A stretch of DNA of 64,000 bases, from contig NZ_QNUJ01000008.1 in assembly GCF_003574625.1 (NCBI RefSeq), positions 124,001 through 188,000 of the forward strand. Direction: 5' to 3'. This DNA comes from Shinella zoogloeoides (GTDB lineage: Bacteria; Pseudomonadota; Alphaproteobacteria; Rhizobiales; Rhizobiaceae). The first letter of the stretch is position 1, and every line of letters starts with the position of its first letter. The notes beneath the pieces were generated by a model. That model was not told the origin of the DNA. It ran no database searches and saw only the letters and a list, made by a program, of their open reading frames with translations. Shown here one piece after another: positions 23,039 to 24,406 of this stretch. Both the position numbers and the translations under genes were made by a program.

Positions 23039-24406
23039 ATGTCGCACGGCGCTGTCGCACGGCCCGCAATCGCCCGCAAATCCTCCGGCCTTTCCGGAAC
23101 CGTCCGCATTCCCGGCGACAAGTCGATTTCGCACCGTTCCTTCATGTTCGGCGGCCTTGCCAGCGGCGAGACGCGCATCACGGGCCTGCTCGAGGGCGAG
23201 GACGTCATCAATACGGGCAAGGCCATGCAGGCCATGGGCGCCAGGATACGCAAGGAAGGCGACACCTGGATCATCAACGGCGTCGGTAATGGCGCTCTGC
23301 TGGCACCGAAGGCGCCGCTCGATTTCGGCAATGCCGGCACCGGCTGCCGCCTCACCATGGGTCTCGTCGGCGTCTACGATTTCGATTCCACCTTCATCGG
23401 CGATGCCTCGCTGACCAAGCGTCCGATGGGCCGTGTGCTCAACCCGCTGCGCGAAATGGGCGTGCAGGTCACCTCTGCAGAAGGTGATCGCCTGCCGGTG
23501 ACGCTGCGCGGGCCAAAAACGCCGACGCCGATCACCTATCGCGTGCCGATGGCCTCCGCTCAGGTGAAGTCCGCCGTGCTGCTCGCCGGCCTCAACACGC
23601 CCGGTATCACGACCGTCATCGAGCCGATCATGACGCGCGACCACACCGAGAAGATGCTGCAGGGTTTTGGCGCGAACCTGACGGTCGATACCGATGCCGA
23701 CGGCGTACGCACCATTCGTCTCGAAGGCCGCGGCAAGCTCACCGGCCAGGTCATCGACGTGCCGGGCGACCCGTCCTCGACGGCCTTCCCGCTGGTTGCC
23801 GCGCTGCTCGTTCCGGGCTCCGACGTGACCATTCTCAACGTGCTGATGAACCCGACCCGCACCGGCCTCATCCTGACGCTGCAGGAAATGGGCGCTGACA
23901 TCGAGGTCCTGAATGCGCGCCTTGCCGGCGGCGAGGACATGGCGGACCTGCGCGTCCGCTCGTCCGCGCTGAAGGGTGTTACGGTGCCGGAAGACCGCGC
24001 GCCGTCGATGATCGACGAATATCCGGTCCTCGCCGTGGCGGCCGCCTTTGCCGAAGGCACGACCGTCATGAACGGCCTCGACGAGCTGCGCGTCAAGGAA
24101 AGCGACCGCCTTTCGGCCGTCGCCGATGGCCTCAAGCTCAACGGCGTCGATTGCGACGAGGGCGAAGCATCGCTCGTCGTGCGCGGCCGCCCGGACGGCA
24201 AGGGTCTCGGCAATGCCTCGGGCGCTGCCGTCGCGACCTATCTCGACCACCGCATCGCCATGAGCTTCCTCGTCATGGGTCTCGTCTCGGAGAATCCGGT
24301 GACGGTCGACGACGCCACGATGATCGCCACGAGCTTCCCCGAATTCATGGACCTGATGACCGGCCTCGGCGCGAAGATCGAGCTTCACGATACGAAGGCC
24401 GCCTGA
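23039..24406 (+). CDS. aroA: 3-phosphoshikimate 1-carboxyvinyltransferase (EPSP synthase, class II, CP4-like)
   Basis: AroA joins phosphoenolpyruvate to shikimate-3-phosphate, the sixth step of the shikimate pathway. At 455 residues it has the same length as Agrobacterium CP4 EPSP synthase and, from memory of that sequence, matches it over nearly its whole length ([56 protein letters not shown]). The PEP-site loop reads NAGTGCRL, with Gly at residue 100, where CP4 has the Ala100 linked to glyphosate insensitivity; Leu105 is kept. AAGGAAG precedes ATG 23039. The stop overlaps the cmk start by one base, indicating coupling. Confidence 0.97.

Follow-up and report, generated by a model that had tools for sequence, protein, structure and literature searches.

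EPSP synthase joins phosphoenolpyruvate (PEP) to shikimate 3-phosphate. Glyphosate competes with PEP for its binding site, next to which residue 100 lies. The E. coli enzyme has a reported Ki of 0.9 micromolar (PMC4709569), while for the class II enzyme of strain CP4, which carries Ala at residue 100, the reported glyphosate IC50 is 11 mM, and its A100G mutant regains glyphosate sensitivity (PMC8983318). A Ki of 86.28 micromolar is given for another class II enzyme, with the residue at the site left unspecified (PMC12973396). The motifs RXHXE and NXTR are described as those of class II (PMC4709569); a third, RPMXR, is known from a title in the reference list of the same paper, where other titles attribute high tolerance to the class II enzymes of Sinorhizobium fredii and Ochrobactrum anthropi.

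The state of residue 100 in nature has also been described. Natural plant and bacterial enzymes share Gly at this site, which is the conserved state (PMC3371024), and the class II-like enzymes of rhizobial isolates (Ochrobactrum, Phyllobacterium, Rhizobium) resemble that of CP4 except that they lack the Ala (PMC7840833). Both observations, Gly as the conserved state and the missing Ala of rhizobial class II-like enzymes, are thus already in print. All strains with class II-like sequences showed the highest tolerance tested, unlike strains with two EPSP synthase genes (PMC7840833); because C-P lyase genes are also present in the isolates of that study, the tolerance of its class II-like strains is confounded.

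The aroA locus and its host genome

The window, by which we mean the whole 64,000-nucleotide stretch of Shinella zoogloeoides DNA analysed here, encodes a class II EPSP synthase (3-phosphoshikimate 1-carboxyvinyltransferase, aroA) at 23039–24406 on the forward strand. The frame runs from an ATG at 23039 to a TGA stop at 24404–24406, with 455 codons before the stop. Its product scores 441 bits against the curated equivalog model TIGR01356 (cut-off 287.25), which places it in the EPSP synthase (AroA) family, and 348 bits against PF00275, again above the cut-off. The sequence contains each class II motif, on the same strand: RPMXR as RPMGR (residues 128–132; 23420–23434), RXHXE as RDHTE (residues 200–204; 23636–23650) and NXTR as NPTR (residues 271–274; 23849–23860). 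Also kept are K28, R33, R128, Q175, R200, D326, K353, E354, R357, H404 and R405, the catalytic and substrate-binding residues described for the CP4 and E. coli enzymes.

Against CP4 (PDB 2gg4) the protein aligns without a gap, residues 1–455 on 1–455, with 23 differences and 94.95% identity; the chains of PDB entries 2gg6 and 2gga are identical in sequence to that of 2gg4, and the CP4 chains are the best matches among solved structures. An earlier note on this DNA had described a protein of 455 residues nearly colinear with CP4, in which the PEP-binding loop reads NAGTGCRL with Gly at residue 100 and Leu105 conserved. Alignment with CP4 and with other rhizobial AroA sequences confirmed each of these points. 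The loop, which also bears on glyphosate binding, spans residues 98–105 (23330–23353, +); codon 100 is GGC, for Gly where CP4 has Ala (23336–23338, +), and codon 105 is CTC, for Leu as in CP4 (23351–23353, +). Thus the window enzyme has the Leu105 of a CP4-type insensitive enzyme and lacks its Ala100. Across 18 active-site positions, residue 100 is the one difference from CP4 and the other 17 are the same, and the letters of the window at all 18 are common to 142 of 149 frames.

Gene order at the locus is aroA–cmk–rpsA. The (d)CMP kinase gene cmk (24406–25041, +; 178.4 bits to TIGR00017, cut-off 135.55) begins with an ATG that overlaps the aroA stop by one base, and is followed by rpsA, for 30S ribosomal protein S1 (25204–26910, +; 1072.1 bits to NF004955, cut-off 878). 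Upstream lies a divergent gene for a TIGR02300 family protein (22393–22788, −; 162.8 bits to TIGR02300, cut-off 41.65), beyond which is a tRNA-Ala with anticodon GGC (22172–22247, −). An antisense open frame of 506 amino acids (22868–24388, −) covers nearly all of aroA; long antisense frames are common opposite G+C-rich genes, and there is no evidence of this one being a gene.

Searched with the AroA protein of the window, the genome to which the window belongs gave one match, and neither the protein search nor the PF00275 profile found a second EPSP synthase there; the second of two PF00275 matches is MurA (544.8 bits to TIGR01072). Nor did C-P lyase PhnJ have a match in this genome, which is 99.97% complete; any tolerance of the native strain would thus be unlikely to come from C-P lyase. 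The named records closest to the window are from Shinella species, and two genomes of its genus, G012 and G008, share their coordinates with Shinella sp. PSBB067 and Shinella sp. H4-D48 respectively, which identifies the genus as Shinella. A class II aroA was present in all 21 genomes of the Shinella genus that were searched. In viral contigs, six stretches fit an aroA pattern, none of which encodes a relative.

Residue 100 and the placement of the CP4 enzyme

The first set of 101 loci, made up of 80 from named genomes, 20 from genomes of the genus and one from the genome of the window, encodes Gly100 throughout. Extending the set to 215 loci, from which 16 without a class II frame were left out, gave 199 class II frames, some from genes fetched more than once, with 195 Gly, three Ala and one Asp at residue 100; as distinct proteins (n = 179) the counts are 177, one and one. 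The three Ala frames are a single gene of genome G173 fetched three times (L132, L133, L151), and the Asp frame comes from G410 (L146), a genome of the same genus. We rejected G173 as a natural Ala100 counterpart of CP4: its gene is a real class II aroA, but it is altered at four further active-site positions (K28T, Q175R, D326E, H404P), for which reason its product is probably not an active enzyme. Once five rows whose active-site letters differ (L132, L146, L148, L150, L152) are dropped, all 174 natural rows have Gly100; with them kept, column 100 of the 180 rows holds 177 Gly, two Ala (one of them CP4) and one Asp.

Pattern searches gave a similar distribution. A motif allowing either Gly or Ala at the site matched in 262 of 394 sampled Rhizobiaceae genomes, and its Ala-only form in two, G173 and G307. 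The G307 match (L134) was rejected as chance, there being no EPSP synthase frame around it. Across the order (397 genomes sampled), a somewhat wider motif matched with Ala in none and with Gly in 157. A match needs T-G behind the site and, ahead of it, D-F-G-N-A in the family survey or D-x-G-N-A in that of the order; genomes whose sequence differs there, or whose sole enzyme is of class I, therefore fall among the misses (132 of 394 and 240 of 397).

Seen from CP4, residue 100 stands apart. In the 180 rows minus the five, 97 columns are invariant outside CP4, which departs at one of them, residue 100, and Ala100 is the only one of its 455 residues that is absent from all 92 distinct homologues. 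As a control, a private residue at an otherwise invariant column was found in 20 of the other 174 rows; a single departure of this kind is therefore not rare by itself. In the same comparison, none of the 20 other Shinella-type rows has one. Gly100 is the normal state, and the odd residue is the Ala100 of CP4 rather than the Gly of the window. While the earlier note implied that a relative with Gly100 is worth remark, 195 of the 199 class II frames have this residue, and, Gly being the common state of the family, plain descent accounts for it in the window. The observation is correct as read but unsurprising, for a gene that is routine, and the direction of the claim is corrected: Gly is the default here, and it is CP4 that has changed, to Ala100.

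The reading in which we place high confidence is that the window holds the sole EPSP synthase found in a Shinella genome, a housekeeping class II enzyme encoded in the order aroA–cmk–rpsA, with a Gly100 that is inherited and nearly invariant and from which the Ala100 of CP4 is derived. The enzyme catalyses the shikimate-pathway step that links PEP with shikimate 3-phosphate, and the Ala codon of CP4 would lie one base from its GGC.

Where the CP4 enzyme belongs can be narrowed further. In a 47-row tree it is sister to L099, the AroA of the Shinella-genus genome G011, with support of 99/93, and a quick 180-row tree made without bootstrap gives the same pair at 91. Shinella is not one clean clade in the 47-row tree (2 changes; grouped as one in 20% of 200 bootstrap replicates), and it is by its sister row that we call the CP4 enzyme apparently Shinella-type. 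A search with CP4 across 131 genomes from 109 genera of the family gave matches at E 1e-60 or better in 108 genomes (91 of the 109 genera); identity was highest in G011 (98%), followed by the genome of the window (95%), and did not exceed 93% in other genera. In print the CP4 strain is named Agrobacterium, though its enzyme pairs with that of a Shinella-genus genome.

We lean, by a little, towards a wider reading in which the enzyme behind most glyphosate-tolerant crops is Shinella-type, with Ala100 as its only residue not shared with any natural relative examined that has an intact active site; this pattern would fit a recent adaptive change of one base at a glyphosate-rich site, by which GGC became an Ala codon on the branch leading to CP4. 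If this is true, the window and its Shinella relatives represent the state before adaptation, and how the commercial trait evolved becomes directly testable. For work on where the crop trait came from, it may be of interest that the CP4 enzyme falls among Shinella-type sequences.

Second EPSP synthase genes and plasmid-borne copies

In the genus of G173, a second EPSP synthase-like match accompanies the class II gene in all 16 genomes searched (loci L137–L152, L132 and L153–L166). The 14 second copies that were read have LGNAGTATRF at the loop and lack all three class II motifs; L156, the one that was scanned, scores 347 bits, above the AroA cut-off. The class II copy is altered at one or more of the 18 active-site positions in five of the 16 genomes, although the frames stay open. 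It has been suggested that strains carrying both genes may lack the class II product (PMC7840833), and these five altered copies would fit that suggestion. On the other side, the class II copy is unchanged at the 18 sites in the remaining 11 genomes, and also in Rhizobium sp. P32RR-XVIII (L065), a strain of the same study. G173 additionally has an extra frame of 277 amino acids between aroA and cmk (L132:4628–5461).

Class II-like aroA genes also occur on plasmids, with tblastn finding them in 38 plasmid records. Five of these were read beside a Shinella record, and all five carry Gly at the site, while none differs at the 18 active-site positions. Two of the five have a motif gap: the copy on pENT01 of Enterobacter sp. 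R4-368 (L217:5956–7260) is without RXHXE, and that of Herbaspirillum huttiense (L218:4016–5335) is without NXTR; both lie near insertion sequences. A 1780-base stretch with a class II aroA, again with Gly at the site, is shared without a single difference by pMNCI063, an environmental IncP plasmid, and a conjugative plasmid from Siccibacter colletis (L216:5466–7552 and L220:3425–5552). In pMNCI063 it lies beside an ISPps1 transposase gene, with IS1071 further off, and in the Siccibacter colletis plasmid it lies between two copies of IS26. Two plasmid records cover at least 80% of the stretch, and the E. coli genome collection holds no near match to it. The stretch may represent a recently moved gene that possibly gives glyphosate tolerance. 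Neither pMNCI063 nor Siccibacter colletis is named in the papers found with combined topic terms. A further plasmid record, from Sphingomonas parapaucimobilis (138559 bases), has TIGR02300, aroA, cmk and rpsA in the order of the window (L219:3581–8060); a record classed as a plasmid thus encodes ribosomal protein S1.

Glyphosate response and comparison with described enzymes

How the window enzyme would respond to glyphosate can be predicted from its two relevant features. Gly at residue 100 would leave room for glyphosate in the PEP site, so the enzyme should be more sensitive than that of CP4, while its retained class II motifs should still make it less sensitive than that of E. coli. Given the reported effect of A100G (PMC8983318), an insensitivity weaker than that of CP4, that is, tighter binding of glyphosate, is a fair prediction, but one for the whole family and not for the window alone. 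The 22 further differences from CP4 could shift the affinity either way. Against the prediction stands the tolerance reported for strains whose class II-like enzymes are without the Ala (PMC7840833).

Two alternatives would place the window enzyme at one end or the other of this range. It is unlikely that the class II background alone makes it as insensitive as CP4, in the millimolar range, with Ala100 adding little. That all three motifs are present agrees with this, as do the titles that call the Sinorhizobium fredii and Ochrobactrum anthropi enzymes highly tolerant (PMC4709569, reference list), taken with the Sinorhizobium and Brucella loci read here, which are from other strains and have Gly100; the CP4 enzyme itself, with an IC50 in the millimolar range, is nevertheless reported as sensitive again once it carries Gly (PMC8983318). 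Nor do we expect the opposite, an enzyme as sensitive as those of class I, with a Ki near 1 micromolar. Such a value would match that of E. coli (PMC4709569), and Gly at the site is indeed common to natural plant and bacterial enzymes (PMC3371024), but the window AroA has the class II motifs, and the other class II enzyme for which a Ki is at hand lies well above that range (PMC12973396).

The remaining alternatives concern the residue itself. That Gly100 is a sequencing or assembly error is almost inconceivable, as a second genome of the species (G018, L082) also has GGC and Gly was read in every one of the first 101 loci. It is also very improbable that the window gene is a special case, a CP4 relative that is notable for being without the insensitivity residue and so offers a near-isogenic natural experiment. 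Gly100 with Leu105 kept is what such a relative would show; yet Gly100 is nearly universal, the simplest account is that CP4 gained Ala and not that the window gene lost it, and a genome closer to CP4 exists. The near-isogenic comparison that the earlier note proposed is weakened by the 22 other differences, H401Y among them, and further by G011 being nearer and by CP4 chains with Gly100 already in the PDB. These chains, 2ggd and 2pqd, have Gly100 in our alignments and otherwise the CP4 sequence, and we take them to be engineered A100G mutants with bound ligands.

Set beside the described enzymes, the window AroA thus shares with CP4 its length of 455 residues, Leu105 and the class II motifs, and differs from it in having Gly100 in place of Ala100 and in 22 further substitutions, including Tyr in place of His at residue 401, four residues from R405. 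With class I EPSP synthases it shares Gly at the equivalent site (PMC8983318), whereas RXHXE, NXTR and RPMXR, all present in the window, are missing from each of the 14 class I-type second copies read. The AroA of G011 has Gly100 as well and is identical to the window at 93.6% of the latter's 455 residues, but of the rows compared it is the nearest to CP4, with 10 differences in 449 aligned residues, G100A included, against 23 for the window, which makes it the closer natural comparator for the CP4 enzyme.
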